A model generated the notes under the pieces. That model did no database searches. It was not told the origin of the DNA and worked only from the letters and a program-made list of their open reading frames with translations. A stretch of 64,000 nt of DNA, taken from positions 62,001 through 126,000 of the forward strand of contig WION01000086.1 in assembly GCA_015039365.1 (NCBI GenBank), in the 5' to 3' direction. Positions 21,118 to 54,197 of this stretch are shown here, in pieces. Every line of letters starts with the position of its first letter. Position 1 is the first letter of the stretch. A program made the position numbers and the translations under genes. Origin of the DNA: Amanita rubescens (lineage: Eukaryota; Basidiomycota; Agaricomycetes; Agaricales; Amanitaceae).

Positions 21118-23064
21118 CCAAATACAATCATTTCTGAATGCGCTAAAGCATTTATAACAGTTGCATGATGATGTTTTCTTACAAAGGGTAAGCTCAGGAT
21201 CGAACATTTTCCCCAAGTTTATACTTGGAAATGCAGAATAACCATTATTTATAGAATTTTCATCTATATAAGATAAAGGACTAATAGATCCAGGGGATCT
21301 ATCGTCTACAATTGGAAATTCTATGTAATTTAAACTATTACGATGAGGAAATTCTTCAGAACTTGGTGAAAATTCTATTAAATCGACTTCAGAACTTGGA
21401 GTAAGTTCTATTGAATCGACCAAGGTTTCTTCTTCATCAGAAAAACCTTGAGAATCACTGTTTTCGAAATTAATTTGAATTTCGTCAGAAGAATTACTAT
21501 TACCTTCATCGTTTGTGAGGTGTATTACCTCATCGTTAAGGAGTGCATTGATCATGTCAATTACCCCTATAATAGTATTTTTGTTAGTTCGATCATATAA
21601 AGCCTGTTGTTTACAATATTTGGTGTGAGCCTTTAATTGTTTCACATACCCTTTGTAATCATATTGGAAATCTTGGTCATTTCCTAATGATATTTGATCA
21701 TCATCATCTTCGACTGTTGCGCGTGCCTTTCCTTTGTCCTTAGGAAGGTTGACAATTGGAAGTGTATTAACATCCAAGTCAGCATTAATATCTGACACTT
21801 GTCCGTTGTCAGATTGAGGTGGAGTAGGCCAAACTACTTTCACCCTTGTACCTTTGTAAGTCCATTTTGGTTTGGACTCACTTTCTGTATCAGCATAATT
21901 AGGATCACCTAATTCTTGATTCCAAGAATTTTCATATTCGTTAGGTAAATTATCATTATCCTGAATAGGATAATAAGTCCTAACGTTTGGTGGTTCTATA
22001 CGAGATTTCAAAGGGAAAGCTATGGCAGGTGATGCCATTGAAGAACCACTGGCAGCTTGTGCCATTGCAGCTCTTTTAGTCATTCTTTGCTTTAACTTTG
22101 TTTCTTTATTACACTCATTATTAGGCCCTTTCTTTTGATTAGGCATTTGGCCATGCCATTGTGCATGAGCCTGAGGTACAGGTGGTTGAGGTTGACGAGT
22201 TTTTGGCCAGAAGTTTGGTTTAAAACCTCCACGACCTCGTCCGCGACCTCTATTACCGGTATATGGCCTATAGGATCCTGATGAGGATCCTCCTGTGTTA
22301 GAACTATTACCATAGTTTTGTCCTTGCCATTTAGGGCGAGGATGTCCTTGGTTTAAGTTAGTTCTAGCCATATTAGCTGTAATAGTTTTGTTGCTACTGA
22401 AAGATTTCTTTCTGCGCCATTCTTCTACTATTCTAGGTATTATTTTAGCCATTGAAATATCTTTTGGTTCAATGCTTGCTAATAATACCGATGACATGTT
22501 ATCCCAATGCTTTCCTAGAGCATTAAGGAGTAACATACATTGCATGTCATCTGGGATAGTTATTTTATGTGTAGAAAGTTTACTAAGTGCATCCTGGAAT
22601 TTTTGGATTGCAATTGTAGGATCATGTCGGTCATCAAATTTCCATTGAAGGACTTCTTTGAATTCGACATATATGCCAGCTAATCCTGGTGTTCCAAACT
22701 GTTTTTTAAGTTTAGCCCAAAAGGATTTAGCTGTGTCAACAGGATCTTGGAGATGACGGAAAGTCGGACTGAGCTTAAGTGTTATTATACCTAAGGCTTC
22801 TTTATCATCTTTGAGATCCTGTTCGTAATCTTTCTTTTTATCTTTAATAATATCCCTGGTGACTGCTGTCATTGCGGCATTGGAGAGAGCAGTGACCTCT
22901 GATTCCGTGGGGGCTGGTGCCATTTCGAAGGTAGTCAAAATGACTCCATCAATTCCTCGAGTCTGTAAATATGGGATGATATTTGTCTCGAAAGTGTGCC
23001 AGTTTGTTCCATTGAATACTGGAACTGAGTCTGCAATGCTACGAGTTGAAGTAGAAGCTGACAT
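21118..23064 (-). CDS. copia gag (UBN2-type), 3' end cut by hAT-like insert
   Basis: The capsid-like protein of the copia element. It starts at ATG 23064 (MSASTSTRSIADSVPVFNG). Residues about 15-220 follow the copia gag fold pattern (FNGTNWHTFETNIIPYLQ, AKSFWAKLKKQFGTPGLAG, IPDDMQCMLLLNALG). No CCHC zinc knuckle is visible. In its place is an RGRGRGRGG region near residue 275, likely RNA-binding. A long acidic Ser/Asp-rich tail follows. The frame ends in RNDCIW at the target duplication and would continue into the protease island at 20163-20225. Confidence 0.85.
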
Positions 23065-23313
23065 TGTATTGCTAAGATTTCTTCGGTTGTTAAAATTTTT
23101 CTAAAAAGACAGAAATAATTAGCATCTATACTTTACAATTGGCGCTTATGTTGATGACAAGTTCTTTGAAATTTCTTATCAATTTTCATATCCATGTCCA
23201 AGTTTCCAAAAGGTAAGGCTTAATTTACTAGATACTATTACAGTTTCTCTACTATTTAGTATCTATAAATTATTCGGCCTTGAGTCAAAAGATATAAATA
23301 TCCTTTATTCTCA

Positions 23314-24639
23314 TCAAAGTTCATTTATTAAACTTTGTACAAAAATAAAGGCCCGACGAATCTTCCTCACTTGTTCTTCCCTTACCTTTTCAGGATTGGG
23401 AATGCAAGTGTGAATATTCTTTTTCCCTTCTCTGGGAGTCGGTCGTATTTGATTCCACCGATCTGGATTTGATCTGGTGGGTTCCTTTCGATGCTCGGCT
23501 GTACAAGACTTTAGTGAATTTGTATAAGTCTCTCTATAAGGTTTATTTACCTTAGTAGATGCCTCTTTTGCATGTACCGGATTTTGCTTTGGAACAAAGC
23601 GTTTGTTCTTGTTCCCTTTAGACTGCGAGTACTGGTTCCCCTTAGCATAATGCCTTTGGGGCCTTTCTGCGACCGGTAATCCGCAGGAGGCTCTCCAAAG
23701 CTTGTAGGAATCCAAATCATTTGGGTTCGGATTGTAGACGAATCTTTCCCATAAATGGGTGTTCCATCCTCTACGCATTTGCTCAGTAATTGGTTTCCTA
23801 ACTCTGAAGATAATAATTGGGGTGAATTGTCCCAATTTGACAGTATCTTCGGAATCAAGGTTCCAATTACCGCATGTGGTTCCGCCCAACTTAATTCCAT
23901 GGGGACAGTTCTGAACTTTGCTCCAAGTTGGAGTATGATGAACCTTGGGGAATGATCGATTAGATCCTCCCTCTTTAAGGATCTGTGCAAAATTAGGCAC
24001 AGTCACTTTCTGAACACTAGGTACCGACCTAAGTGGCATCATCTCAATTGGTGATTGAGACGACGACGACGATTCAGAAGTAGTAACAATAGGGTCATCA
24101 TTTCTTCCTAATGGAGAAGGAGAAGGTGTAAACCTTCTCTTATTTTCCATATTCCTGAATTCATCAAGAATATGGTTGTTCAGAGTTTTAGGACCAGAAC
24201 GTCCTACCCAAGATGGAAACATACTATTATAATGACGTATTTCATTATATAGTATTGGGTCAGAAGCCTTCAGGTTTTTAACCTGAGGAAGGGGAGCAGT
24301 GGGACACAGAATCTTCGGTTTATTATCCGAAGGGGAATCAGCAAAAGTAACTTTTTTCTTTCCTTTGGTGACGACGGTAAAACCATCATCACCTTGACCT
24401 AAGACTTTCTCCATGATTTGGACGAATTGGTCATTAGGCATATCAACCAGTTGGTCTTGTGGGTAGACCTGGAATGTATTTCCACTGGCAAAATCATGGA
24501 AAGAATATTTAGCAGGCTCAGCGGCCTGCTTAGAGGAAACCGAAACAAATTTTCCAAGCTCAGGAGCTTGGACGGCAACTGCCGAAAAAGATTTGGCCTT
24601 GGAGCCAGATGCGACTTTGGAGTTTGCGGAGGGGGACAT
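23314..24639 (-). CDS. unidentified ORF upstream of copia gag
   Basis: About 441 codons from ATG 24639 (TTTACCATGTCC context; a longer frame opens at 24687). It is Ser/Lys-rich with no recognised domain. Notable segments are FTVVTKGKKKVTFAD near residue 87, a Cys-containing stretch NCPHGIKLGGTTCGNWN near 240, and a basic Arg/Lys tail. It lies 250 bp upstream of gag on the same strand with similar AT-rich codon use, so it may be an extra 5' ORF of the copia element. Ty1/copia elements normally begin with gag, and without a 5' LTR membership cannot be proven. It could also be an older neighbour gene. Confidence 0.45.
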   Translation of the reverse strand: MSPSANSKVASGSKAKSFSAVAVQAPELGKFVSVSSKQAAEPAKYSFHDFASGNTFQVYPQDQLVDMPNDQFVQIMEKVLGQGDDGFTVVTKGKKKVTFADSPSDNKPKILCPTAPLPQVKNLKASDPILYNEIRHYNSMFPSWVGRSGPKTLNNHILDEFRNMENKRRFTPSPSPLGRNDDPIVTTSESSSSSQSPIEMMPLRSVPSVQKVTVPNFAQILKEGGSNRSFPKVHHTPTWSKVQNCPHGIKLGGTTCGNWNLDSEDTVKLGQFTPIIIFRVRKPITEQMRRGWNTHLWERFVYNPNPNDLDSYKLWRASCGLPVAERPQRHYAKGNQYSQSKGNKNKRFVPKQNPVHAKEASTKVNKPYRETYTNSLKSCTAEHRKEPTRSNPDRWNQIRPTPREGKKNIHTCIPNPEKVREEQVRKIRRAFIFVQSLINEL

Positions 24640-24689
24640 GGTAAAAATTTGATAAAAAACTTCTAAAGAAAAGTATGTCAGCAACAAGA

Positions 24690-25990
24690 ACGAAACGGCA
24701 TTTTAAGGCAGTTGTTCTCTAATTAAGGAAAAGGACTCAATCAAGTATGGACTTGACCAGGCCAATGCTGGGCTTATAGCCAATCAGCTATCTTGACACA
24801 CATGAGTCTTGGTTCGATTACTTGATGATGATGTTTGGGTTTGATGATTCATTTAAGAGTTAGAATGCACCGCATTATGTAGTGTTGCCCAAAGGAGAAT
24901 ATAGGTGGATCATGCCATGATGTAGAAATCATATCAACATGTCCGTGGAATGACCATTGTAGGTGTCAAACCGCCTATCATATTATCTGTCCACACTCAT
25001 GGAGGCAGCGCCAAAACATTTATTCCCAGCAAATGAGATCTACAAGGTAAAAACCTTCAGGTCAAATGCCACGACATCAATTTTGAACGCTGTCAGCTCT
25101 CTCCGTATAGAAGGGTCCAAATAATATGAGTTTTTCGTATTCTCCATCAGTGCTAAGACTATTTTGATGTGCAACTAGGTCGCGTGTCTTTGCTAGGGAC
25201 ACTATATGACGACATCAAAAAGGAAGTCTATCCTATAGCACTGGCCACTAGTCGTTATATCATTTAATCGAATGGCCAACTCGTGACTCGCATTCGTAAT
25301 GAATCTAACATCCTAGCAGTTGGGATAATAGCATAACTTTCTAACATAATCTCTATGATGAATCATCCCTCTCTAACAACCTATTGGGTCTCAATCCCCA
25401 ACTAGGTATCTAGGTATGCGGACGTATTTTAACGATAGTTATACTAATAACCGCTGGGTTACAGCTGAGTTATTCTGGCTATAGAAACTCCTTAAGGGGT
25501 AGTTTCTGTTCGGCAGAGTGTACTATCCACAATGGGATATCATCTCACCGCTATACTAGAATCTATTTAACTATTTATGTATATAAGGGATCGAAAATCC
25601 CTATGATGATATATACTGGTTTCAAATACGTCCAATCACATCACATAGTCCAGATAAACTATGTGGGACGCCGAAGTTGCTATGTTCAACTTCGGAAAAC
25701 AACCCATGGGATCATTCCCCCATGGTAGTACCCTATTTTATCTCCAGATAATAGGGAATCTAACCGGTGTCCTTTTAGGAGGACAAGTCCAAGTATTGTA
25801 ACCGCTCTTCAGCGTCTGCCTTGGACAGGCATACCCTTATCTCTGGGTGTAGAGAGGTCCCCATTAGCCCTTGGGTCCGGGCATCATCATCGTTCTCTTA
25901 ACCCATCGACGCAGAGTCGAAACGGGGGTTAGCCAAGTACCAATATTAGATATACAGGATACAAGGTAGGTAACATCATCCACGCCTTGT
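24690..25990. other. no recognisable gene; copia 5' LTR not found
   Basis: About 1.3 kb with no long ORF and no similarity by eye to the copia 3' LTR at 3771-4373. A TATATAAG-like box occurs near 25580. This could be the copia leader, an unrelated LTR or intergenic DNA. Confidence 0.3.
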
Positions 25991-28795: not shown

Positions 28796-29526
28796 TGAAC
28801 CTGATCTAACTTTTTCCGCTCTGGTGTCAATGGATGGGAACAACTCCCTGAAGAGAATCAGAGCATCCGTTCGTGCTCATAATGAACGGTTGGACTCACG
28901 AGCGATTATTTCAGACCATTGGATTACACCCGACGAAGTTGACAAATTTGCAAATGAGGTATGCAGTTTCACATGAGAAATACTTTGCTTATCATTGCTC
29001 TAGGTTACTGATGCTGTACAGGACGCGCCGGAGAAAGATCAGGTATGTAAACAATATTCATTTCAGGGCCAGGTCTCATGTTGCCCCCTCCGCTCGCTAG
29101 TTTGATGAAAACACAGTGGACACTCAAGATCAAGACGAGAGTTTAACGACTTGTACCGATCATTGGAAGAATGCAAGGTCCGATGAGTGCAAGTCAACGC
29201 TCCCAATGTTTGATGAAACTGGCATATTTATTTCCTCTTGCCGTCATCGTATTATTTTATATTGTTGTGACATGATCCAGAGCAGAGAGCTGTAGGTTTT
29301 TTCCTCCGCCACAATAGGCTAACCGAACTTAGAAGTTTCTAGATCAAAATACCCCCTTTCAATTGTCAAACGCTTACTCCGAGACACCGGTGAGAGAGTT
29401 GGCTGTGCTTACGACATAGGCTGTGTCTTCCAGAAGACCCTTGCCGAAAGTAGCATTGGCTCTGAGGCAAAGGAGAAAAACTTCCAAATGATGGTAGGAG
29501 CCTTTCATGGCCATGCACACAACCGC

Positions 29527-30013
29527 TGAAACAATAAAGAGAAGGCCGACGTGGAACAGTGTTCGGCCAAAGGGGCTACGGAGGTCTGACCGATGTGCTT
29601 AAGTGCGATAGAGTGCCGAGAACGAAGGAGAAGGAACGGAACGGTGACCGAGTCACCGAGCGAGAAGGAGAACGGAAATCGGACGCAAGGGAACGAGAAA
29701 GAGAGCGGAAGTGAGACCGGCTGTATATTCAATGTCCAACTACTACAGACAATGCCGTATATATACTACGAGGACATGAGGCTTACCTGCGACGAGCCTT
29801 CCTCCGAGTCCGTTGGTCCGTGCGCGTCTAGGTGCCCCGTTGCGTTCGAATATCGCTCAAGTTGCGGGAATGGCCCTGTCGGAATGTGGCCGAAGGTCGT
29901 TGGCGCGAAGGTTTGACTTCGGAAGCTTCCGTGATGCGTGATGTGATGCCGAGAATCGGAATGCGGTGCGCTTCGGTGTTCGGTTCCAACGTAGCCGGAA
30001 CCGGCTCGTTACA
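29527..30013 (-). repeat. Gypsy-2 3' LTR
   Basis: On the minus strand it starts TGTAACGAGCCGGTTCCGG and ends TTTATTGTTTCA. A minus-strand purine-rich stretch, AAAAGACCCCGGGAGG (30014-30029), immediately precedes it and is a probable polypurine tract. Confidence 0.95.
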
Positions 30014-30123
30014 CCTCCCGGGGTCTTTTAATACTGACCTCCTGGTCAGGTCCGAGGAGATAAGAGGGCGATAAGAGATAGAGGGGAGTGGAGGGTGGGT
30101 TCTTCTCTTCCTCTTCTACAATC

Positions 30124-31314
30124 ATGTCGGCCGTATCCGCAGGCGGTGGGAGCAGTGTCACGAAGCTGATAGCGCGCAAGCTGGACAAGCACGTCGAGGC
30201 GTTTGGCGAGCGGTTGCTGGATGTGCCAGAGGGGGAAGTAAACTTGAGCAATGAGGGGGATGTCCGGAAATGGCTAGAGCTGGCGAAGAACGACGTGGTG
30301 AGTAAGGGGTACGTTGTCGTTGGCGGAAACTAATCGTGTCCAGGAGAAGATCCGGACGTATAGCCGGGAGCTTGCAGATGCGGGGTCAACGACAAAGCTT
30401 GTTTCAGTCATCACGGATGGCCTCGTCCAGTACGATAAGCTCGGCGTCGGTCTACGAGAACTTAGTACAACGGTGAACCTGGCAAGGTCCTCCTCCGGGG
30501 CGAGTTTGCGTCCAGAGGACTCTGCGAGCCATATCAGTTCCGGTTCGGTTGCGCGAAGTAGCGTCCTAGAAAGGTCGTCGCATGCGGGTGCGCCTGCTGG
30601 CCGTCAAACTGTCCCAGAAGTGCCAGTCGTCGATTTCAAGAGACCTGCGCCGAGGCCTCGTACTACACGCAGTAAGGTCGCTCCGGCTGTCGGTTCAGAG
30701 TTGATTTCCCTTCAACAGGTACGTTGGTGATGGACTATGTCGCGGTCCCTCAGCTGATGCCCGAATCGCAGCGCTGCGAAACTTGCGTAAGGCTGAATAA
30801 GGCCTGTGTCTTCTCCGGTGACCATACGGCATGCGATCTCTGTCGAGCGAAGAAGGTAAGGTGCGCCATGCCCGGTGCGGATGCTCCTGTCGTGCGATCC
30901 TCAAGCGTCGCGTCGTCGGCTGCTAAGAGCATTCCGTCGTCTTTGGCGCGAGGTGTAGGCGCACTTGGGGTATCGGGCTCGTCGGTGAAGACGCCGTCTC
31001 GGTCGGATAAACGGAAGATCGAGGTTGGGAGTAGTCTGGAGGAGCAACCTCCGCGTAGGCGTAGCAAGACGGATCTGAAGGAGGCCGGTGACGTGGAGAC
31101 GGGTTCTGAAGGCGGTTCGGGAGCGGGTAAGACGAAGGCGGGCTATGAGGATCGTATCGGCAGGCTGGAGAGGAAGCTGACGAGATTCCAGGACCTTTAC
31201 AAGCGGTCGGTGGAGGACCTGCAGGCAGACATGAAGGAGCTAAGGGAGGAGATGGCCGAGGAGGTTCCCCAGGCGAAGAGCAAGGGCAAGGGCAAGGGCA
31301 AGGGCAAGGCGTAG
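30124..31314 (+). CDS. antisense spliced gene in Gypsy-2: Cys-cluster, coiled-coil protein
   Basis: Three exons on the strand opposite gag-pol: 30124-30297, 30344-30718 and 30772-31314. The introns are 46 nt (GTGAGT...CTAATC...CAG) and 53 nt (GTACGT...CTGATG...CAG), and splicing preserves the frame to give about 363 residues. Exon 3 opens with RCETCVRLNKACVFSG then CDLCRAKKVRCAMPG, i.e. C-x2-C-x6-C-x8-C-x2-C-x6-C, similar to basidiomycete Zn-cluster (Zn2Cys6-like) DNA-binding motifs. A basic patch (KRKIE...PPRRRSK), a predicted coiled coil (RIGRLERKLTRFQDLYKRS) and a (KG)n tail follow. It is likely nuclear and nucleic-acid-binding (inferred). It could instead be a captured host gene. Confidence 0.7.
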
Positions 31315-31424: not shown

Positions 31425-34400
31425 TCAGAGTCCAGACTCAGGTAGGTCATCGACCTCCGTTAGTGCCTCATCAATGAAACCATCACCATCGCCGTCAGCG
31501 AGGGAGGCTTCGTCGGGCGAGTCGTGTGTCATCGTATAAAGCTCCTCATCGGATCTATTAAGTAATTGTGAAAGCCGCTCACCCGGTGCGATACTGCGTG
31601 ATCGGTAAGGAATTAAACGTTTGGCTGCGTACCGTAACTTAGAAAGGGCCCCATCGGTCTCGGCGAGTATGTACGATCCTCCTTGGGTTTTCCGGATAAC
31701 GACCATCGGTCCGAGGTACCGGGGTTTTGTTTTACGATCGAGTTCCATATCGATCTTGTTATTACGGACGAGGACTAAATCTCCCTTCTTGAAGCGGAAG
31801 TTCTTGATCGTATGCTGGAAGCGCTGCTCAAGCTTGCGCACGGCGTTAAGCCGGGACTTGTAGACTTTGTCGCGGATGATTTTGAGATCGGCCGGACGTT
31901 TCTGTAGCTGTCGGGCACGGTGGGCGAGCAAGTCCTGTCTCGAGAGCTCGGATGTAATCGGCGGGCAAAGGTAAGTGGCTTCCGAGATGTCGAGGGGCAG
32001 CGTCGGCTCGGTTCCGTGGGCGATGAAGTATGGGCTGTAGCCGGTAGATGGGTGTATCGTAATGCGCTCGGCCCAGAATATGGATGGCGCGACTTGACTC
32101 CACTTCTCGGTTTTGCCGTCGGCTGCTTTGATGAGAGATTCTCGGACGTCAAAATGTCGGCATTCAACGATGCCATTGGCCTGTGAGTTGTACGGGGATA
32201 TTCGGATGTGGTTGATACCGTATCGGTGGCGGAGGACTTCTAGAGCAGCTACATATGGCGTTCCGTTGTCGGTGACAATGACTTCTATGGCTCCGTGGCG
32301 GCAGAGAATATCTTCGAATATGAACTTGGCGATAGCTGTTGCGTTTTCGGAGCGGAGCATTTTGTATTCGGGCCATGCGGAGAGGGAGCATCTTGCTTGC
32401 GTGATGTAGGTAAATCCGCCGGATGCTGGCATCTTCATGGTGTCCATGTGTACGATTCGGAAGAGACCTCCAGGCTCTGGAACAGTCGGCGGAATGTGTA
32501 GGCGTTGGGCGTTTCGGATCTGGCAGTTATGACACGTCCGGACGTACCATTTAACGTCGTAGTCAAGGGAGGACCACCAGAAACGGTCTCGGATACGAGC
32601 GCGAGTCGCGAAGATGCCTTTGTGTCCGGTGTCATCGTGTGCTTCCTGTATGATCTGTAGTCGCTTGGAGTCGTTGAGGATGACGAGCTTGTGTCGGCGG
32701 TGATCGTCTCGGTACCAGAGCCGGTCGCCTTGAATAAAGAATCGCTTGGCCTTGTTGAGCCATTGTCGGAATCGATCGGCTGACATGTCGGGCGGCCGTT
32801 GCGGGTTTTTGAGGTAGGCTTCAATCCTGAGTATGTCGGCGTCTCGGGCTAGCTGTTTTTCGGATCGGGAGAATATGTCGGGGCCGTCAGTTCCGGTGGC
32901 ATAGCATGCGGCGGTGAGGTGCGGCTTGAAAGTCCAGTTGGCGGCCTCGATACAGAATGCGTTAGCTTCGTCAATCCAGTCGTCCGGGTCGGAGTCGTCT
33001 GGAGGCTCGTCCTCTTCGGATGCTCGGCGCCTAGATAATCCGTCGGCGGGAGTGTGCTTCTTTGCGGAGACGTGGCGAAGTTTGAAGTCGAAGAGGAGGA
33101 TTCCTGCTATCCATCTGTTAATCGTGTTATTCGGCTGGATATCCGGGTTATTGATCATTCCTTTAATATACTTAGCGTCCACCTCGACTACAAGATTTTT
33201 GACGCCGATGATGAATATCCGGGTAGCTTTGAGCGCGCGGAAGAGTCCGTAAAGCTCGAGTTTGGCCTGGGAGTATCGTTGTTCTCGCTCGTTGAAGGTA
33301 ATAGATCCATAGCGGTTCGGATAGCGCTTCTTGTCGGGACCGATCTGTGATAGCCAGTATCCGACAGCGTACCAGGATGAGTCGACGGCTAGGATAACCT
33401 CGAGAAGTGATTCGTAGTCGATGCCTCGGATGGCGTTGCAATTGATAGCGATGAGCTTGAGGTTCTCGAAGGCGGCGATATGGTGACCAATAAATTCGAA
33501 CTCGACGCCCTTCCGTAGGAGTTCCGAGAGTGAGCGAGCGTGTTCGGCATAGTCTTTGACGTAGATGCGGATGGTGCCCATAGTTCCTAGAAAACCTCTA
33601 ACTTCGGTGATAGATTCGGGGATAGGCCAGTTCCTGATCTTTTCGATTCGTGAGTCGTCCGGAAGGCGTCCTTCGTAAGTGCATTTGTGTCCGACGACGA
33701 TAGCTTCTGGAATACAGAAAAATGACTTCTTTCCGGAAAAGGTACCGCCGGCGTGTTTGACGCGTTGGATAACTCGGTTAATGTTCTGGATGTGTTCCCA
33801 TACGAAGCGTCGGATGCCAGAATTTTCGGGGATGGTCTCGAAGGTTCCGTCGGGGAGCTCGTAGCGGGTTTTCGGTCCTTTACAGGGGCAGTCGTCGACG
33901 AAGGGTTTGGTGACATGCGGAATTTCATCTTGAAGGATATAGGTGAGGTCGCCGTGCTGGATCTGCATCGAGTTGGTGTATCCCATCGGAATAGACGTGA
34001 GGCGGAAGGTACCGAGAGGCGTTTGGAAGGTCGTAAGGTCTCGGGATTCGGTGGCAAGGCGGCGCTGGTCAAAACCGACGAACAGATCAAAGGTAGCGTA
34101 ACATGAGTACCCACCAAATGACTCGGCGAGCAGTTCTACGTTCGGCGGTTGTCCAGAGTCTTTGATAGTGACGGCGTTAAGCGGCTGTAGGTCGTGGACG
34201 ATGCGCAGTGATTTCCCATCTTTCTTGTAAACGCAGAACCAGCGGGACCGATAGGATGAGCTGGACGGTTCGTAGACTCCGGAAGCGATTTTGTCTTTGA
34301 TGATGCGTACGATCTCGTTGTATTTGCCAGGCGGAATCGGCATGTTCTTTAGCGTCCAGGGCACGTGTTCAATGGTCGGAATCACCACGGGGTCGAAGTA

Positions 34401-35105
34401 GTCGTCGGAGAACTTCCCTTTCTCTGCTTCAGTCCATGCGAAGCCTTCTTCGTGTATGCGGATCAGATGGTGGATGAGCTTTTCTTCTTCGGCGGTTAAG
34501 AATCCAGTGGGGTTGATATTTTGTGCCTTCATTCGTTCTTCGGTGTATCGGGTTCCTGGGGCAAAGTCCGGTGGCTGTGTCGGAAGGGTAGGGAGATCGG
34601 CGAGGGGATCGGATGGTATGCGGCGGATAATTCGGAATTTCTCGGGTAGCGTGGTAGCGACTGGCTTAATTCGGTTGGCGACTTTCTTATATGCTAGTGT
34701 TTCGGCGGCGGGGACAAAATTAAATTCGAGCTCTGTAGTACTGATATGTCCGTTGTAAGGTAAGAGTATATTACCGATCATTCTGGGCGCGGTCAACATG
34801 TCCAAGAAATGCTCCTCCGACAAGTGGTATGGGTTGTCTCCCTTTCCAACTGTGTAAACGGTCGGCGCGTCGGTAGTTTCGGGCGTTGGTGTAGTGGCAT
34901 CGGGGTCAGCGGAATTAGCGATCGTCGGTTGATTAAAGATGGTTGTAGGTGTGATATCGTGTATGTGCGGCGTAGTCGTATGTACGTTTGGCAGTTCTTC
35001 ATTATTGACATGTTTGGTGGGCGACTGCGGATTCCGAGCGTCTCGTCTCCGTGTGGGCGATTCATCGACAATTAAAAACCCGTTTTGACGGTATGTGCTC
35101 CGCAT
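31425..35105 (-). CDS. Gypsy-2 pol: RT, RNase H, integrase
   Basis: About 1226 codons on the minus strand in the -1 frame relative to gag, so its N-terminal residues (MRSTYRQNGFLIVDE) would come from frameshifting. RT: WFCVYKKDGKSLRIVHDLQP and FVDD (near 33895) in place of the usual YxDD. RNase H: LAVDSSWYAVGYWLSQ and a late ADGLSRR. Integrase zinc region: HDDTGHKGIFATRARI...CHNCQIRN (near 32645-32520). Core: IVHMDTMKMPASGG, VTDNGTPY and SPYNSQANGIVE for D, D, E. No chromodomain is visible at the C-terminus, unlike Gypsy-1. All catalytic acids are present, so it is probably functional. Confidence 0.95.
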   Translation of the reverse strand: MRSTYRQNGFLIVDESPTRRRDARNPQSPTKHVNNEELPNVHTTTPHIHDITPTTIFNQPTIANSADPDATTPTPETTDAPTVYTVGKGDNPYHLSEEHFLDMLTAPRMIGNILLPYNGHISTTELEFNFVPAAETLAYKKVANRIKPVATTLPEKFRIIRRIPSDPLADLPTLPTQPPDFAPGTRYTEERMKAQNINPTGFLTAEEEKLIHHLIRIHEEGFAWTEAEKGKFSDDYFDPVVIPTIEHVPWTLKNMPIPPGKYNEIVRIIKDKIASGVYEPSSSSYRSRWFCVYKKDGKSLRIVHDLQPLNAVTIKDSGQPPNVELLAESFGGYSCYATFDLFVGFDQRRLATESRDLTTFQTPLGTFRLTSIPMGYTNSMQIQHGDLTYILQDEIPHVTKPFVDDCPCKGPKTRYELPDGTFETIPENSGIRRFVWEHIQNINRVIQRVKHAGGTFSGKKSFFCIPEAIVVGHKCTYEGRLPDDSRIEKIRNWPIPESITEVRGFLGTMGTIRIYVKDYAEHARSLSELLRKGVEFEFIGHHIAAFENLKLIAINCNAIRGIDYESLLEVILAVDSSWYAVGYWLSQIGPDKKRYPNRYGSITFNEREQRYSQAKLELYGLFRALKATRIFIIGVKNLVVEVDAKYIKGMINNPDIQPNNTINRWIAGILLFDFKLRHVSAKKHTPADGLSRRRASEEDEPPDDSDPDDWIDEANAFCIEAANWTFKPHLTAACYATGTDGPDIFSRSEKQLARDADILRIEAYLKNPQRPPDMSADRFRQWLNKAKRFFIQGDRLWYRDDHRRHKLVILNDSKRLQIIQEAHDDTGHKGIFATRARIRDRFWWSSLDYDVKWYVRTCHNCQIRNAQRLHIPPTVPEPGGLFRIVHMDTMKMPASGGFTYITQARCSLSAWPEYKMLRSENATAIAKFIFEDILCRHGAIEVIVTDNGTPYVAALEVLRHRYGINHIRISPYNSQANGIVECRHFDVRESLIKAADGKTEKWSQVAPSIFWAERITIHPSTGYSPYFIAHGTEPTLPLDISEATYLCPPITSELSRQDLLAHRARQLQKRPADLKIIRDKVYKSRLNAVRKLEQRFQHTIKNFRFKKGDLVLVRNNKIDMELDRKTKPRYLGPMVVIRKTQGGSYILAETDGALSKLRYAAKRLIPYRSRSIAPGERLSQLLNRSDEELYTMTHDSPDEASLADGDGDGFIDEALTEVDDLPESGL

Positions 35106-37243
35106 GTGCTGCGGGACGATCTCGGGCGTGTGACAAGGACGGCGGAGGTTTTAGATTCGGGGCAGGTGATCGTGATGTCCTGGTTGCCATTGGGGTAGTC
35201 GCGGGTGACGGCAGAGAGCAGGGTGAAGAATGGGCGGCCGAGTAAAACTTCGTAAGGTGCGTCTTCCACGATGTATGCCTGGACTTGGACCGGTAATCCG
35301 CCGATAGTCAGGGTGAGGTTTTCGGTGATGCCAAGGGTCCAGTTCGATGTGCCGTTAGCGGTTTCCATCATGATGCGTCTAGAAGCGGAGTAGCCGGAGC
35401 CTGTGCGTTCCCATTTGTCCTTTCTGATGACGATAATCTGAGAGCCGTTGTCGACGACGCATTCGCATTTGACGGATCCGCTGAAAGTACCGTCTACGAC
35501 TCGGAGGGTCTCGATAGGCTTAGTAGTGGCCATGAGAACATCGATCGGATCGTCTTCCGGGGGCTCGGTTTCAGTGGCGGAGACCTCATTGCTAGATGCG
35601 GATTCAATGCGTTTGGCGGTAACCAATTGACGTAAGTCTTTTTGGACGGCCGGGGATATTGCAATGAGGTCCTTAGCGGCTAGGGTCACGGGTAGGCTGA
35701 GAAGATGGTCTATGATTCGCTGGGCGGCGGTCGTGTCATCGATCGGCGAGCGAAACTTGAAAGCGGGAGTATCTTTTTCTTTTCCTTTGGACGTGGAAGC
35801 GACGGGCGGTGTCGTGGGCTGTGGCGGAGCGGGGGTCTGCTTGGATCGGGGCATAGCGGTAGAGTTTTTCTTTTGTTCGGCTGCGAATGTTTCGGCGTGA
35901 TCGGAGATCTCCAGCAGGTTGGCGGAGGCTACGCGTGGCTGCGGCGTGTTCGGCTGTGGATTGTCCTGAAGCCATTTATCAACACGTTCTTTGAACCATC
36001 GTCCGTGCATTCGGTATTTATCCATATTCGGTTCCTCGCCATTCAGGAGCTGTATGCGGCCATCAACTAGCCTGATCTTGCCTTGTCTGAAGTATTCGTC
36101 CCTGACTCGGCACCAAGGAGTTCGGTGCTCTGAATCTCCACAGAAAACGCATCCGTTGAAGAGTCGTTGGGCGAAAGTTTCTGCTGCCTGTGCGGTCGGA
36201 GCGGCGGTTGGATAGGAAGGGGCGACTGGCGCAGGCGCGGGTGCAGGCGTGGGAGGCGTGGTAGCTGCAAGGAGTGCTATCGCAGGTCTGGAGCTGATAA
36301 CGAATTGTGCGGCGCTGTTCATTTCCTTTAGATCGTAGCCGTCGTCGGGTCTGACGTCCGGGCACTTGATCGTGAGCCGAGTGGTAATATCGGGTCTGAT
36401 GTCGGAAGCGAACGCTGACATGTACATAATGCTTGCCTCGCGGCCGGTCATGCGGTGTTTGGTTATGAGGTACTGAGCAGTGCCGGAGAACTCCCTGTGG
36501 TATTCGGCTAGAGTAGTCTCGGAGGTAATGGTCTGGGATGAGTAGCGATCGGTGATGGTACGCAATGCTGCAATGGTGTGGCGTCGATCGGGCTGTGCCT
36601 CGGGGTAGATCTCGCGGATCGCTTTCTTAAAGTCGTCCCAAGCTTTTGGTTCCGCTAGCGCGTCCCTGGTGGCTGTCCAAGTTTCGGAGGATTTCTCGTC
36701 TGTGTAATAGATCGCCCATTTAACAAGCTCGGCGTCTCCGGAGCGTTCTCGATCTTCGCAAGTCATCTCGATGTCCTCGAGGTAGCGTTCAAGACCGCTT
36801 GCGGCACCCTGAAAACGGGGCGCCTCTTTGCTAGTCCGGATAGGCATACGGGTCGGGGTAGCCATGTTGCTTTTGGTAGGAGGAGGTGAGGGAGAACGAG
36901 ATGGTGTAGGCGGAGGCGGTGTAGGGGTAGGCGAGGTAGGACGGGATGCAGGACGAGGTGAGGCAGGACGAGGTGAGGCAGGACGCGGTGAGGCAGGACG
37001 GGTTGGCTCAGGGGTAAGCGGATCAGGTATCGGTGTCAAGGGCGAGAGCGGTGGCAAGTTCGGAAATAGACTAAAAGCAGTGGGCACGTGCTGTGAATGA
37101 GCCGGTTGAAGCGATTTCGGAGTCGAGGTGCCAAGGAGTGAAGGAGACTGCGGTGCAAGGAGTGCGGATAGGTCTAGAAACGAGGAAAGGTCGGCAGGTG
37201 TTGGATCTCTGATCGGTAGGGGAAATGTTCCCGGAAGGTGCAA
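35072..37243 (-). CDS. Gypsy-2 gag-protease
   Basis: The minus-strand frame opens upstream of 37243; the first ATG is at 36865 (MATPTRMPIRTSKEAPRF), matching the start of the related gag at 52730. The part before it is a Pro/Ser/Arg repeat region (RPASPRPASPRP). Capsid-like region: LERYLEDIEMTCEDRER, WDDFKKAIREIYPEAQPDRR. CCHC knuckle: CVFCGDSEHRTPWC (near 36160-36115). Aspartic protease: CVVDNGSQIIVI (near 35460-35425), with Asn after Asp. The frame ends TAA at 35072 directly after a slippery heptamer, so RT and integrase should be made only by -1 frameshifting. Confidence 0.9.
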   Translation of the reverse strand: MHLPGTFPLPIRDPTPADLSSFLDLSALLAPQSPSLLGTSTPKSLQPAHSQHVPTAFSLFPNLPPLSPLTPIPDPLTPEPTRPASPRPASPRPASPRPASRPTSPTPTPPPPTPSRSPSPPPTKSNMATPTRMPIRTSKEAPRFQGAASGLERYLEDIEMTCEDRERSGDAELVKWAIYYTDEKSSETWTATRDALAEPKAWDDFKKAIREIYPEAQPDRRHTIAALRTITDRYSSQTITSETTLAEYHREFSGTAQYLITKHRMTGREASIMYMSAFASDIRPDITTRLTIKCPDVRPDDGYDLKEMNSAAQFVISSRPAIALLAATTPPTPAPAPAPVAPSYPTAAPTAQAAETFAQRLFNGCVFCGDSEHRTPWCRVRDEYFRQGKIRLVDGRIQLLNGEEPNMDKYRMHGRWFKERVDKWLQDNPQPNTPQPRVASANLLEISDHAETFAAEQKKNSTAMPRSKQTPAPPQPTTPPVASTSKGKEKDTPAFKFRSPIDDTTAAQRIIDHLLSLPVTLAAKDLIAISPAVQKDLRQLVTAKRIESASSNEVSATETEPPEDDPIDVLMATTKPIETLRVVDGTFSGSVKCECVVDNGSQIIVIRKDKWERTGSGYSASRRIMMETANGTSNWTLGITENLTLTIGGLPVQVQAYIVEDAPYEVLLGRPFFTLLSAVTRDYPNGNQDITITCPESKTSAVLVTRPRSSRSTCGAHTVKTGF
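35075..35081 (-). promoter_or_regulatory. -1 ribosomal frameshift heptamer GGGTTTT
   Basis: In the gag-protease frame the minus strand reads ACG GGT TTT TAA. G GGT TTT fits the X XXY YYZ slippery consensus exactly and sits right against the gag stop. The pol frame is -1 and overlaps gag only across about 34 nt containing this site (it then reads GGG TTT TTA ATT). A downstream RNA structure was not assessed. Confidence 0.7.
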
Positions 37244-37497
37244 GTCTTCGTCGGCTGAACTAGTAGAGAGATCGGATGACGGAGGATCTGTCGGTGGTTC
37301 GGGCTGAGGCTGTTTAGGAGCAGGGGGTGGAGGCTGAGGAGTAGTCGGCTTCCGAGAAGACCAAGGAACGTGTGGTCGGCTGGATGGTCCTGGCTGAGGT
37401 TCGGCGGGCCTAGCTCGGCGTGGACCTAACTGAGATGGAAACTTTTCCGATGCCTTCTGCGCTGCAGGACGGTGAGGACGAATGGCTGGGGCACAGA

Positions 37498-37526
37498 CCT
37501 AAGAGCCCCTCGCGGTGGGCTCCAGT
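37498..37526 (-). other. Gypsy-2 primer-binding site region
   Basis: Just inside the 5' LTR the minus strand reads ACTGGAGCCCACCGCGAGGG. TGGAGCCCACCG has the form of a tRNA 3'-end complement (TGG first), offset 2 nt from the LTR. The identical sequence follows the LTR at 52342 in the gag-only relative. The tRNA cannot be named by eye. Confidence 0.6.
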
Positions 37527-38013
37527 TGAAACAATAAAGAGAAGGCCGACGTGGAACAGTGTTCGGCCAAAGGGGCTACGGAGGTCTGACCGATGTGCTT
37601 AAGTGCGATAGAGTGCCGAGAACGAAGGAGAAGGAACGGAACGGTGACCGAGTCACCGAGCGAGAAGGAGAACGGAAATCGGACGCAAGGGAACGAGAAA
37701 GAGAGCGGAAGTGAGACTGGCTGTATATTCGATGTCCAACTACTACAGACAATGCCGTATATATACTACGAGGACATGAGGCTTACCTGCGACGAGCCTT
37801 CCTCCGAGTCCGTTGGTCCGTGCGCGTCTAGGTGCCCCGTTGCGTTCGAATATCGCTCAAGTTGCGGGAATGGCCCTGTCGGAATGTGGCCGAAGGTCGT
37901 TGGCGCGAAGGTTTGACTTCGGAAGCTTCCGTGATGCGTGATGTGATGCCGAGAATCGGAATGCGGTGCGCTTCGGTGTTCGGTTCCAACGTAGCCGGAA
38001 CCGGCTCGTTACA
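37527..38013 (-). repeat. Gypsy-2 5' LTR
   Basis: 487 bp, TGTAACGAGCCGG...TTGTTTCA on the minus strand, followed by CCGC at 38014-38017. It contains TATATATAC (37756-37765), a likely TATA region. Confidence 0.95.
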
Positions 38014-39879
38014 CCGCGCCTGCCAGCTCAAGTGGCATCCGTTATACATACGAGGCACCGGCAAGAGTGAAGGCGAAGGATGTGAGCACGTGTTTTCAGC
38101 AACGAATGATCTTGCACGCACGGTGTGGTATGCAAGCCGTTTTCATCGGCGCCAAGCCATTGAAGAATACTTTACCTTTTGGGACGAAGAAAAATATGCA
38201 TTGCTCTGTACGTACTGGGTCATCTTTTGATTGACAAGGGAGCTAATTTCTAAACATGAAACGGCAGCTAAATTTATCTCAAATCATTACCGTGAGGCAG
38301 CTGAAGACATTCGCTTATTGGAAAAGGAACTGGCGGAGGCATGTTCTCGGTTCGAAATTAACACTGATGATTTCGTCCAGCACATTGATGAAGAAAGGGC
38401 TTATCTAGAAGGCCTAAAGAAGCCGCCCCCTGAGGTTGAAACTAAAGGGTGTTATGTGGAGGCCCTAAACGAATTATACAACTGTAGGTACGTAAATTCA
38501 GGTACAGATCATAAGTTGAGAGTACTCACTTTACGGAAAACAGACAAGAATGGGAAAATGCATGTGCGAATGTCAACCGAACGTTGGAAAGGGTTGCACC
38601 TGTCAACGCACTTGCAGCTGTTGCTCAGGCCCGCAAGCACGTGGAGACGACTTACACTAAGTTACAGAACACCGAAACCTTAGTTGGCACCCTCGAGCAA
38701 ATCCTCAACATCTCAGAACGATGGTCCACCGAATCCTCAGATTACAAGAAGTACCATCAAGAAAATATAAAGACCAAGTATCAGGCGGCCATCGACAACC
38801 TTGAGAGGCTTGTCATCATGCGCCTGTTTGAGCTCACAAAGCTGTGCTCGTCTGGAACAGGTACAGTATTATTCCTTTTATGGTCTAGCATATGTATTCA
38901 ATTGGATTACCATTAAAGGGTACAAGCTACATCGCCAAATTAGTAGGGCACTTCAAAGGAGGTCAGAGGCCATCTGGAAGGCCATCAGCAGGTACAATGC
39001 CGAGGCTGCAAAACTTAACCCGCCACACCAACCACTGTCATGGAAAGACGTTGTCGACTTCAGTTTCCTGGGTGAATTCGACGTCTTGCGCTATTTTAAA
39101 TTAAAATCGGCCAAATGGATGAGGCCGGCAGTTCGGGAAGCGATGGTGAAATATCTCAAGCTGGAACGTGCACGCGAGGAAATAGATCGCCTGAATGTCG
39201 AAGTGCGCCGCCTTCGGACTTCAATAGAACACGAGGAGAAAAGGGTTGAACAAGTTTTGCGGCATCTAGAAGCACAAGGGTTGCCGCTGCTTGGCGGGGA
39301 GCTTCAGCGGCGATGGAGTTCACGCTCAGCAGTGAACCAAATTCATTTGAAATTGCTCGATAAACTGGAATCATGTCCGTACTTTACAGGAAAATGTGGA
39401 TCAGGTGTGTATGAGGATGCAAATCCTGGTGATAATCTAGATCTAGCGGAGGGAATTGAGGATGAGAACAGGAGGCAGGAGGATTTTGAGGTGGTAGCGG
39501 AATTCGTGCTAGGTATTGATGATTGATTTGTGGATATGCTGCAGACGTTGCGAATGAATGTCATACTCGTGCGGGAACTGAAGTACACAATTAGTATCAT
39601 GATAATAAGATTGGAATTGGAAAGATACGGAAGTTGACTTAAACAGTGATCGAAGCTGCCATGCGTGGGGCGAAAACATGTGTAATAGAACATAGGAGAA
39701 CTATTGAAAGTAACTGTAGATGTGCGGCCCGAGTCATGAAAGGACTTGGAGTGTGGATTGTCAAGACTTGGACTTGTCTTAATCCGATCTGTGTTTAGCG
39801 TCGCTAACTTGTTCAATCTGGCTTCTTGTACGCCTTGCTTGACTCCTTCAGAGCCTATGCATCACACTGATTGATATTC

Positions 39880-41153: not shown

Positions 41154-44100
41154 ATGAGTCACATCTACACTCCATCCAACATTTCATTTATTTCAGCTCA
41201 TTTCACGGAGACTTCTCCCTCGCAACGCCTCGCGGCTGCTTGGGCTGCAATTTGCCATCAGCTTCATTCCGATGGGTCTGATCTTGCAACCCAAACCCCA
41301 AATGGGCTTCATCCTATGTATATTGCATTGCATGGACGCGGAGATGCGAATGATGTTGAGATCAAGGCGCAGCAGGAAGTCCTCAATGACACTTTCAATG
41401 ATGTACTTGATGCAGTGAGTTCACATATTTAATCAAGTGCAGTCGACTAACATCTCGTTCTAGCTCACTACATTAGACCGCATAGATGGAGGAATATCGC
41501 TCCTCATCCGGTCTCCCGGTTTTACTGTCTCAACTGATTCCGGCATGAATGATATCACCCTGTCAACATATCTAACCTCTCGTGCCATGACGGCTGTCGA
41601 TGCCAGAGACATGCTTCAAGAAGTCCTCGTGGCATTTACTCAGATCTTCGGGAAGGAGGTTGTTCTTCCACACCTCCATCAATTCACCAAACGGTGTGAG
41701 TTGGAAGGTGTCAATGCCACGTTTGAACCCAGTATGTGTAATTATTGCCTAAAAAATCATTGTTACTGATATCTGCTGACTGTAGTTCCTGGAATTCGTC
41801 TGCGCGCAGCGCGCCCCTACATTCGCTTCCCCAAAGAGCATAGTACCGGATATAACGCTATTGAATGTGTCCCGTTTGATTTTTTGCCGGTCAGGATCGA
41901 GTCCAGGAAGCCTCTCCCTTCTCGTCAGCGGTTGAAATCAATTATTGGGGCCGCATTTCAACTTTGTCAACTAGGTCCGATGGTCAGCAGTGGGGCTCAA
42001 ACAGGGGGTAAGTTCAGATGCCGTCTCCAGTTCCTGTAACCCAAACACTGACAAGCTCCAGATTCCGATCCCACACCTGTGTCTGATCAGCCCATCCTTC
42101 GTTTCGGTGCAGAAACTGACATAGCTTTGGATTATCTCGAGCTCCCGGACATCTTAATCCCTCATCTTCACAAACTTGCACGCACAGTCCGCAGTAGCAA
42201 ATGGGAGAAAGAACTTCATCGGCCTGAGTGGGGACTCAGTTTGGAACAAGCAGGAATGCTTTCATGGGCAATGATTCAAGACTCGACTGTTGAAGATCTC
42301 AAGGTACGCGACCTTTTTCCCCACTAGGCTAAGGCTAACAGAATCTGTCAGCGCAATATCCATTCAAACTCCTCCGTTATTTCCGGCGCCAAAATCATTG
42401 TTTATTCCAGTATCATCACTTTCTGCTTATCTATATTTTTTTATGTAATTTCCGCATAGCTCCTAGATTTTTCACAAGCTGTTGTCAACCCTTTTCAAAA
42501 CATTTGTAGCCAGGAAATAAACTGGTCCTTGACGGAGTAAGCGTCATTGGCCCTGATAAATCAGACACTAAAGCCGCCAATCACAGCACAGGCGTGCAGC
42601 AATACCAGCGACAACTGTTGCTAAACAAAATACAGCCACACCTGGACCATTTTATGGATCGGCACCCATTATCGTAAGTTGTTGCTATGCTGCTGCGTAA
42701 ACTAAGACAAATGATATATTTGTTTACTGCTAAGCCATGGCACAAGCGTGCGACGATACCAGCGGCAAGTGTTACTAAACCAAATTCAGCCAGATCACCG
42801 CTCCCGGATGATCTTATAGATCGGCACCAATTACCGTAAGTTGCTGACCATGCTGCGTAAAATAAAACTCAAATAATATATTTGTTTAATGCTAAGCCAC
42901 GGTGATGATGCCAGGGGCAAGCGTTGCTAGACCAAATGCAGCCGCGCCCAAACGATCTTACAGATCGGCTCCCATTCCGTAAGTTGTTGACTATACTGCA
43001 TAAAATACAACTCAAACAATACATTCGTCTGCTCTTACTCATGCGAGGCAGATTCTACAAGGCACAACAACACCCGGCGACGACAAACCCGCCGCGTCGA
43101 ATTAATCCTGGCCTGAAGCTAACTCGAGAAGGGTGGGCGGAATTAAATGCACGCCGCAAAGAGTTGAAATTGGATTATGACGCAGCACTTGAAAAGGCAT
43201 GGAAAAACATTGAAGAAACAATTGCTCAGATTGCTGCTGACCATAAAAAAAGTATACGACGTATTGAGTCGGACCTTCGGCTCAGCCGTCCGGTTTCTTT
43301 GCGTCGGCACAGCAGAGTAAATGCATGGAATGCCTTTTCTTGGAAGAAATGCAAAGACGAGAAAGAAAATCTAAACACGGATGGCACGTAGCTCCAACCT
43401 ATAAATTAACATAGTGAATAACTAGCATACTTAGGTCCCGCACGATTCAAGGCGCAAGGGAAGGATAGGCTTCCCGAGGTTTCAAGAATTCTGGGGCCCG
43501 AATACAAGATGCTGACCCAAGAGGAGAAAGACCAATTAGTTTCTGAGATGGAGCAGGCCAGGGCGACGAAGGCTAGGGGCCGCCGAGTCTCAGCGCGGTC
43601 AAAGGTTAATGACATGATCACGAACTCAATTGCTGTGATTGAAAACGAGGTAATCCATTGCCAAAAGTATCTATACTAGCTCCGCTTACTTTTCTGCAGT
43701 TTCTCAACTTAAATGCACGCACTGGCGCCGAAGCAGTGTTTTTCATTACACGTGGGACCTCAGATGTAGCCTTCCGGAACGTTTCTTTCAAGACTCCCGG
43801 CGTAACCAACTTTTTGGAAACAACAATGAAAATTGACAGCAACCAACTTCTGTCAAAGATGGAGGGTTATGCCCTCAGCGGGTTCAAAGGTAACTTTACC
43901 ATTGAATTATCTCATGCAACAAGGACTTTACACTCCCCCCCCCATTCCGCACGGATTCCACAGGGATTCCACGGAATCCGCACTCATTCCGCACTGCTAA
44001 TGTAGTCTTTGTAGTCTTTTTTTGTAACACTATCTCCATTCCACACTCATTCCACACCCATTCCGCTCGGAATATTCCGCACTCATTCCGCGGATTCCGC

Positions 44101-51944: not shown

Positions 51945-52341
51945 TGTAACGAGCCGATTCCGGCTACGTTGGAACCGATCTCTGAAACCTTCCGAAGCTC
52001 CCCGAAGCACTCCGAGCCTATGCTCGACCCCGGAGGATGATCGTTTGTGTTCGGATGCATGCACAGGCCTCGGACTCGGTGCAGGAATTGTCACATGGTC
52101 ACCTTGTGCCTCCGTAGTATATATACCATTGTGTACATAGTTGTAGTTAGCGAATTATCACCCCAGCTTCGTTCCGAGTTCGATTCCTTCCGTTCCCTTC
52201 GTTCCTCGGTGCTTCGGACACCTTCCACTCGTTCACCTTCGTCTTCAGCACTCTCTCTGCCTCCGAGGCACCCCCAGGACTGACCTCCGAAGCCCCTTTG
52301 GCCGAACGCACTTCCGCATCAGCCTTCTTCTGATTGTTTCA
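51945..52341 (+). repeat. LTR-A (5')
   Basis: 397 bp, TGTAACGAGCCGATTCCGG...TGATTGTTTCA. Both ends match the Gypsy-2 LTR but the middle differs. TATATATACC at about 52117-52126 is a likely TATA region. Confidence 0.9.
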
Positions 52342-52729
52342 ACTGGAGCCCACCGCGAGGGGCTCTTAGGTCAGTCCGTCGGTCATTCCTTTCACCCAAC
52401 TGCTGCACAGAAAGCATCGGACAAGTTCCGGTGTCACTTGGAATCTGCTCCGAGCCACTCCAAGCACTCTGCCGGCCCTCCCATAGCTCAGAGACCATAC
52501 CCCGCCGACCTTTCTTCAATTATACCCTCCCCGCTCTTTACACTGCAGTAGCCTTCACCACTCGGCCCCACAGCACTGACACAGCATCAGCCGAACAACG
52601 CCCACACGTTCCACTACTCCCGATCCAGCTCTGATCAATCAATAGCTTTCATCCCTGAAGCCCCTTGCTTAATCCACCTCGCTTTCCATCAGAACAGCTC
52701 GCTTCGCTTCGACCTGCCAGTAACATCAT

Positions 52730-54197
52730 GACCGAACCAAGCTGCCGCATGCCCATCCAAATGAACAAGGAGGCACCCTGCTTCCGAGGCACTGCCGCTG
52801 GTCTTGAGAGATACCTCGAAGATATCGAGATGATCTGCGAGGATAGACAACGCTCCGGAGATGCCGAACTGATCAAATGGGCTGTCTACTATACTGATGA
52901 GAAATCTTCCGAGATCTGGAGAGCCACTCGAGACACCCTATCGGATCCGAAAACCTGGGACGCATTTAAGAAAGCAATTTCCGAGATCTACCCCGAGGCA
53001 CAGCCCGATCGCCGCCACACTATTGCAGCACTACACGCCATTTCCGGCCACTTCTCAGTGCAAAATGTCACATCCGAGACAGCCCTTGCTGAGTATCACA
53101 GGGAATTTTCCGGAACAGCTCAATACCTCATCGGAAAGCACCGCATGACACGCCGTGAGGCAAGCATCATGTACATGTCCGCATTCCCTCCCGAGCTCCG
53201 ACCCGATATCACTACTCGGCTCACAACCAAGTACCCGGACGTCCACCCTGATGACGGCTATGATCTAAAGGACATGAATAGTGCCGCGCAATTCATTATC
53301 AGCTCAAGGTCTGCTATAGCCTTGCTCATTGCAACCACCCCACAAGCTCCGACGCTTCCGATGCCTCCGACACCTATCCCTACTCCCCCTCCGAGCACTG
53401 CCTTCGCTCCGAGCACAGCTTCCACCCATCTCCTTAGCGGATGCATTTTCTGCGGAGATATCAATCATCGGACGGCCTGGTGCCATATCAGGGATGAATA
53501 TGCAAGGCAAGGGAAGATCAAAATAGTCGACGGACGGATTCAATTTTTGGACGGCAACGAACCAAATGCATTCCAATACCGCCACTTCGGACAATGGTTC
53601 AAAGAACGCATTGATGTATGGCTGCTGAGGTACACACAGCCGACCACTCCGAAGCCATTTGTGTCCTCCAACTACTTCCTGGAAGCTCTAGACCACTCCG
53701 GAACACATACCACCGAGCCTGTCAATACTGAAGCACTGCAAAATGTACATACGACTCCGACGCACATACACATTAGCATCACGATCCCTAATCAATCCAC
53801 GCTCCCTAATACCACCCCCTCCGAACCCTCTGAACCCTCCAGACCCTCCGACGCTCCTACCACTACAACGCATGATACCACCGAGACCTCCGAGGCTTCT
53901 GATGACCCCACCACTGCTACGCCAATTTCTGCCACCCCGGAAACCCTCGGCGACCCCATCGCCAAAGTCTTTATCATTTCCGAGCCACCTGGCATCCCAA
54001 CAGCTGCCATTCCGAGACCTGATTCCGCCGAAATTCCAACTGCCGCCTTGACCGCCTGCACGATCAAAGAAAGCGAGACAAGAAGAACCCACCCACCACT
54101 TCCCTTCTACTTTCTATCACCATCCGACCTCTCCAACCTGACCAGGAGGTCAGTATTAAAAGTACCCAGGAGGTGTAACGAGCCGATTCCGGTGTAA
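52730..54197 (+). CDS. gag of the gag-only element
   Basis: The frame opens at 52665; ATG 52730 (MTEPSCRMPIQMNKEAPC) aligns with the Gypsy-2 gag start. Capsid-like region: LERYLEDIEMICEDRQRS, WDAFKKAISEIYPEAQPDRR. CCHC knuckle: CIFCGDINHRTAWC (near 53449-53490). A Thr/Pro-rich tail follows. The protease segment of Gypsy-2 is absent and the frame ends inside the LTRs. A retained gag with lost enzymes suggests selection for packaging, or simply an internal deletion. Confidence 0.85.

Follow-up and report, generated by a model that had tools for sequence, protein, structure and literature searches.

Antisense genes have been described in retroelements of both plants and animals. According to the parts of PMC11963269 and PMC7264820 drawn on here, the plant Ty3/gypsy elements Retand, Grande (gene23) and RIRE2 carry antisense open reading frames (ORFs) between pol and the 3' long terminal repeat (LTR), those of Retand mostly encoding TRP28, and the same portion of PMC7264820 calls for an examination of spliced antisense transcripts. 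The HBZ and APH proteins of the human T-lymphotropic viruses HTLV-1 to -4 are made from antisense transcripts that undergo splicing, and they reduce viral expression or transcription from the 5' LTR (PMC10186651, in the part used). Here we describe a probable spliced antisense gene in a fungal element. It lies in a stretch of 64,000 nucleotides from Amanita rubescens (contig WION01000086.1, positions 62,001 to 126,000; this whole stretch is the window in what follows), where a minus-strand Ty3/gypsy element holds on the opposite strand, between pol and the 3' LTR, a three-exon gene for a zinc-cluster-like protein. As had been proposed as one of two possibilities in a sequence-only reading of the window, this gene is encoded by the element: it is carried by other copies and under purifying selection.

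An intron-containing antisense gene in a Ty3/gypsy element

The gene, all parts of which are on the plus strand, consists of an exon 1 of 58 codons (30124-30297), intron 1 (46 nt, 30298-30343), exon 2 (30344-30718), intron 2 (53 nt, 30719-30771) and exon 3 with the stop codon (30772-31314). Both GT-AG introns are in phase 0, their lengths shift the frame, and read-through meets an in-frame stop in each; the predicted spliced product has 363 amino acids. Introns can persist in such a place because retrotransposition copies the sense RNA, where they stand backwards and are left unspliced. Directly downstream of intron 2 lies a cluster of six cysteines (C-x2-C-x6-C-x8-C-x2-C-x6-C, 30775-30864) with a predicted Zn2Cys6-like fold, a pattern matching only once across the six frames of the window, even in relaxed form. 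Further downstream, exon 3 residues 122-164 (31135-31263) form, in a structure model, a long helix that is probably a coiled coil.

A DNA search with the gene gave at least 30 matches, and 22 of 30, the window included, cover the whole query with 93-100% identity. The alignment comprises 25 rows including the window; left out were L021 (on C126, where an insertion interrupts the copy), C588 (for which no locus is given), short fragments and loci repeating the same places, and since a single locus may in some cases be represented by several haplotype contigs, the rows are not independent. Both introns keep GT-AG in 25/25 rows, which bears out the frame-preserving three-exon structure read from the window. 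Start, open frame and stop are present in 17/25 rows, with indels in the open copies staying in frame, i.e. deletions of 39 bases in L031 and of 3 bases in L025 and L026 and an insertion of 6 bases in L023; the remaining 8/25 are broken, among them L027-L030 with one stop each. The ratio of nonsynonymous to synonymous divergence (dN/dS) between the window and L025, L026 and L027 is 0.37, 0.33 and 0.34 (Fisher p from rounded counts 3.4e-5, 3.0e-5 and 0.0016), and the introns diverge less (3 and 4 of 99 positions for L025 and L026) than the synonymous sites (0.147 and 0.119). Two of the checks set beforehand, on further copies bearing the gene and on the substitutions (dN/dS 0.33-0.37), speak for element copies that retain the gene under a purifying pattern. 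A chance ORF is ruled out by dN/dS, by intron conservation and by a second element family (family B, below). An integrase-like or gag-like identity of the protein was rejected, there being no such Pfam match at E≤1.

The element itself had been called nearly intact, and its parts are indeed in place. Self-comparison locates the 5' LTR at 37527-38013 (-) and the 3' LTR (TG...CA), on the side where the antisense gene starts, at 29527-30013 (-), with a probable polypurine tract, read from the sequence, adjoining the latter at 30014-30029 (-). The LTRs show 2 differences in 487 positions and are bordered by a 4-bp target-site duplication, CCGC (29523-29526 and 38014-38017), and the order protease-reverse transcriptase-RNase H-integrase behind gag is that of Ty3/gypsy: the window element is a young member of this group. 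The gag-protease frame (35075-37498, -) spans 808 amino acids from stop to stop, with the first Met at residue 212, and matches Pfam gag-asp_proteas (4.8e-08); its sole D-[TSN]-G match is DNG, neither DTG nor DSG. The pol frame (31428-35150, -; 1241 amino acids) covers reverse transcriptase, RNase H and the integrase zinc domain, RNase H and Integrase_H2C2 scoring above their Pfam cut-offs and RVT_1 below (20.7 bits, cut-off 29.6); among the Pfam matches listed there is no integrase core (rve), only the integrase zinc domain.

Related genes in other element families

A protein search of the genome found nine more places, here called family B (the window element and its copies being family A), with 44-47% identity in exon 3. 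Pol is present at 9/9 of these loci, about 75% identical where long (in L042, L046 and L047 it is split or incomplete); gag is present at 8/9, its main pieces 54-58% identical, and an LTR pair at 7/9, one of them partial. The family B gene likewise sits between pol and the 3' LTR, i.e. a homologue lies antisense in another LTR element, a point that the sequence-only reading had wanted checked. Its protein has 350 residues, with 131 of 336 aligned residues identical to A (39%) and the same cysteine spacing; the introns of A and B occupy homologous positions, columns 63 and 188 of the alignment, and GT-AG introns are found in 9/9 and an open frame in 8/9 loci. Between A and B, 0.73 of synonymous sites differ, which is near saturation, and the nonsynonymous difference is 0.44 in the antisense gene versus 0.16 in pol. 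As judged from these values, the antisense gene evolves faster than pol while its core is retained.

Remoter relatives were sought with pol, 118 of 422 candidates being scored. An element on C160 (family C) has a 1.8-kb direct repeat, 97.8% identical and taken as its LTRs, gag and pol pieces that are 27-36% and 45-49% identical to those of A, two of the pol pieces being about 1.2 kb apart, and an antisense gene, again placed between pol and the 3' LTR. The predicted spliced product comes from four exons and has 460 (L049) or 461 residues (L048); exon 1 comprises 58 codons, as in A, and intron 2 also stands directly before the cluster, which here reads C-x2-C-x8-C-x10-C-x2-C-x7-C. Because profiles leave this cluster unaligned with that of A and B, the sequences do not establish homology and family C lends support through place and structure only; it is these that suggest a common descent. 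In family D (C50 and C777) the gene is 45% and 41% identical to that of C, and no match to window pol or gag was found near it within 8 kb at C50 and 4 kb at C777.

The 1.8-kb repeat of family C also holds a 249-residue open frame (L049:2538-3284, +), and a 343-residue ORF without Pfam match at E≤1 (L053:2292-3320, -) is convergent with the zinc-cluster gene of family D. C157 was set aside as a whole family C element in favour of C160, as the stretches examined contain no LTR pair; an ORF with a KDZ-linked CxC6 domain (L052:2848-3756) ends about 350 bp before the gag match there. Two further elements, with LTRs not located, have no Cys motif after pol: one on C769 (pol 32%) in about 3.1 kb and a chromodomain element on C25 in about 1.8 kb.

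Predicted zinc cluster, candidate target and rival explanations

Fungal Zn2Cys6 domains space their cysteines as C-x2-C-x6-C-x5-12-C-x2-C-x6-8-C, a rule that the window and family B clusters fit and those of C and D (x8, x10, x7) do not fit exactly. The earlier opinion that the layout belongs to no named family is therefore not upheld, since spacing and predicted fold resemble Zn2Cys6 and a metagenome relative (P0007, 25.0) is the sole one to score above the cut-off of Pfam Zn_clus (PF00172); P0006, P0008, P0009 and P0011 score below it, and exon 3 of families B and C gives no match to it. No other Pfam domain scores above cut-off in the window antisense protein. Among the metagenome proteins, P0001-P0003 match exons 1-2, P0004-P0014 exon 3 and P0015 family C. 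P0004 is 99% identical and the other ten exon-3 proteins are 40-60% identical, P0005 and P0010 being of family B type; 6 of the 11 span the cluster, and the six cysteines are kept in 6/6. Scans of viral_contigs and genome_contigs returned no relatives.

In the window protein, basic recognition residues were not found in the first Cys half. Positions 1-15 of the Zn_clus profile align to the second half, CDLCRAKKVRC, comparison with the GAL4 and LAC9 sequences gives the same shift, and families C and D have basic residues in both halves; on these alignments, a GAL4-like basic half in second place is an unusual feature. The structure model of the Cys6 stretch predicts a Zn2Cys6-like cluster followed by the long helix, with a mean predicted local distance difference test score (pLDDT) of 94-97 for the helix block (exon 3 residues 121-160); the N-terminal model (pLDDT 43) is unusable.

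A candidate target emerges from the LTR and leader sequences of A and B, which share 347 of 582 aligned bases. The best conserved 24-base stretch is the LTR tip (21/24), extending past the LTR end, with other stretches in leader and inner LTR reaching up to 20/24. At this tip stands an everted repeat, whose A form is GCCGGAACCGGC and whose B form is ACCGGAATCGGT, with the shared core CCG-N4-CGG; in the window it is found in the 3' LTR at 29994-30005, i.e. 119 bp before the antisense ATG, and in the 5' LTR at 37994-38005. The pair flanking the core is altered on both sides between A and B, so that the symmetry is preserved, and the repeat is intact in 16/16 B tips and in 21/23 A rows holding the whole site. 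In its A form it fits the Leu3 consensus GCCGGNNCCGGC (PMC2930855, in the part used). The changes in L007 and L008, at the LTR tip beside the gene, are C-to-T-type changes at CpG sites. Furthermore, the leader that separates the LTR from the antisense ATG contains two GATAAG motifs in A (30059-30075, +, within 30016-30123) and three in B (L039:913-1024); among shuffled sequences, 12/5000 reach two in A and 0/5000 reach three in B. These repeats are perhaps a feature of the antisense promoter.

With slightly better than even confidence, we see in the gene an accessory gene of the element, whose spliced antisense product would be a zinc-cluster DNA-binding dimer acting on the element's own LTR or leader. 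Antisense transcription would start at the 3' LTR end or in the leader, and the transcript, once spliced and translated, would yield a nuclear dimer, held together by the long C-terminal helix and contacting DNA through the Zn2Cys6-like cluster with its basic residues. The most likely target would be the element itself, i.e. the LTR tips and/or the leader, and binding would feed back on sense transcription or on the gene's own expression. Here, we infer transcription, splicing, nuclear location, zinc binding, dimerisation, DNA target and direction of regulation; cluster fold and helix are predicted, and what the sequences show directly is the place of the gene, its structure, its copies, the selection on it and its conservation in family B. 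Since the gene is preserved intact in numerous copies and in at least one further family, the element probably uses it and perhaps controls itself through it, with LTR transcription or targeting as what the protein might control. A more specific form of this scheme is tentative and on the whole unlikely: as a self-encoded factor with the basic half second, the protein would bind as a dimer to CCG-N4-CGG at both LTR tips, so that a single site would govern both the 5' LTR promoter of the genomic RNA and, at the 3' LTR, the promoter of the factor's own gene, as in a self-contained, HBZ-like feedback circuit.

Several points weigh against self-control by the antisense gene. The splicing of its presumed transcript is deduced from sequence conservation. 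Over the 15 pairs of six representatives, dN/dS ranges from 0.08 to 0.49, L027, one of the copies compared, has a stop, and the differences to L025 and L026 cluster at 30544-30663 (30/85 and 29/68), a patchiness that suggests recombination between subfamilies; L027 is without this patch (1/42 differences), yet gives a similar ratio. The window protein scores 18.4 bits with Zn_clus, under the cut-off of 21, and the Foldseek matches, all of them Zn2Cys6 domains, are not individually significant (best E 0.56), the list consisting of Zn2Cys6 domains only, so that the absence of other folds proves nothing. Profile comparison of A/B with C aligns only part of the helix (probability 5.7%, E 0.0067), and the A/B and C/D clusters are left unaligned. 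As to the everted repeat, its recognition was post hoc among many possible spacings, with counts made for three arrangements at spacings from 0 to 15; it is no more palindromic than other LTR stretches, its core occurs 20 times in the 64-kb window and nowhere in the 1.8-kb LTR of family C, it is changed in 2/23 A rows (L007 and L008), and it sits where integrase, too, reads LTR ends.

This last location leads to an improbable alternative, in which the protein steers integration or acts as a chaperone of the pre-integration complex, the cluster reading host or LTR-end DNA and the helix contacting integrase. A DNA-binding-like protein would suit such a role, and the conserved repeat is 8-19 bp away from the tip of the LTR, the site of integrase action; no link of the protein to integrase was found, however, and a leader of its own on the antisense strand would point to expression separate from that of gag-pol. 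Somewhat more improbable is an anti-silencing factor that binds the chromatin of the element and relieves host silencing, for which the plant VANC proteins are a precedent; the faster change of the protein than of pol (39% versus 76% identity between A and B) fits an arms race as well as self-specific targeting.

It is very unlikely that the antisense RNA is the effector, pairing with the genomic RNA and triggering or tuning silencing, with the protein being secondary. The gene does lie wholly within what should be transcribed into the sense genomic RNA, and such pairing has been raised for plants in the review PMC7264820 (in the part used), but dN/dS of 0.33-0.37, the in-frame indels of open copies and the cluster residues kept in family B indicate selection on the protein. 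The sequence-only reading had also considered a trapped host gene. Capture of a host gene in a single ancestral element, followed by passive carriage, would explain the host-like features, i.e. introns and a zinc-cluster protein, and the C- and D-type copies without own pol alongside (C223, C50) fit it as well. It is nevertheless hardly credible: the gene is under selection and retained by two families whose pol and gag are about 75% and 54% identical, and in a genome protein search at E≤10, with only the best candidates scored, the only match listed besides element-type copies was C331 at a chance-level E of 1.07. Since the gene is common to both families and no host relative listed is better than this, a recent capture is disfavoured, and the antisense gene is an element gene rather than a recently trapped host gene.

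Neighbouring repeats and comparison with known systems

Elsewhere in the window, an LTR-like pair (51962-52341 and 54682-55061, 98%) encloses a gag-like piece (52745-53705) with 72% identity to the gag DNA of the window element, as well as a family A LTR with leader (54081-54683); judging by this composition, 51962-55061 consists of nested or non-autonomous elements. A repeat of about 450 bp occurs at six places in both orientations (7208, 14897, 18275, 28344, 46582 and 48803; 92-99.8% identical), and a 2-kb inverted duplicate occupies 4928-6962 and 43922-45945 (99.5% identity). A 661-residue ORF (21118-23100, -) contains a copia-type gag domain (Retrotran_gag_2, 8.6e-16), and the adjacent 462-residue ORF (23317-24702, -) matches no Pfam family at E≤0.01. 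Rfam and tRNA scans of the window gave no matches.

Compared with described systems, the window gene resembles those of Retand, Grande and RIRE2 in place, orientation, a suspected nuclear DNA-binding or regulatory protein and conservation within a lineage (PMC11963269 and PMC7264820, same parts); here, too, the stretch from pol to the 3' LTR bears an antisense ORF conserved in its lineage. It differs in being spliced and in encoding a Cys6 protein, with no TRP28 (PF04195) among the Pfam matches at E≤1, and neither 'intron' nor 'zinc' appears anywhere in the text of either plant article. With HBZ and APH it shares being an antisense gene in a retroelement, but those are bZIP or unrelated proteins of animal retroviruses, whereas the window protein is zinc-cluster-like, has no bZIP domain among its Pfam matches at E≤1, and comes from a transcript for which a start in the LTR is no more than possible. 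GAL4, Leu3 and Pho7 are similar in Cys spacing, predicted fold and a downstream dimerisation helix (PMC5559640, in the part used); unlike them, the window version is borne by a retrotransposon, with the cluster in mid-protein and the GAL4-like basic half second.

The open-access titles and abstracts listed in literature searches yielded no spliced zinc-cluster antisense gene in fungal LTR elements. The function of the plant antisense accessory proteins is an open question, on which a compact version with a DNA-binding module bears. As introns mark the strand of expression, copies are numerous and almost identical, and the LTR tip offers a candidate site, the idea of self-regulation would be testable. 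Antisense ORFs of plant gypsy elements are already known and the fungal zinc-cluster version is, provisionally, new; if it acts as proposed, this would suggest that antisense regulators were acquired by retroelements on more than one occasion and with DNA-binding folds that differ.
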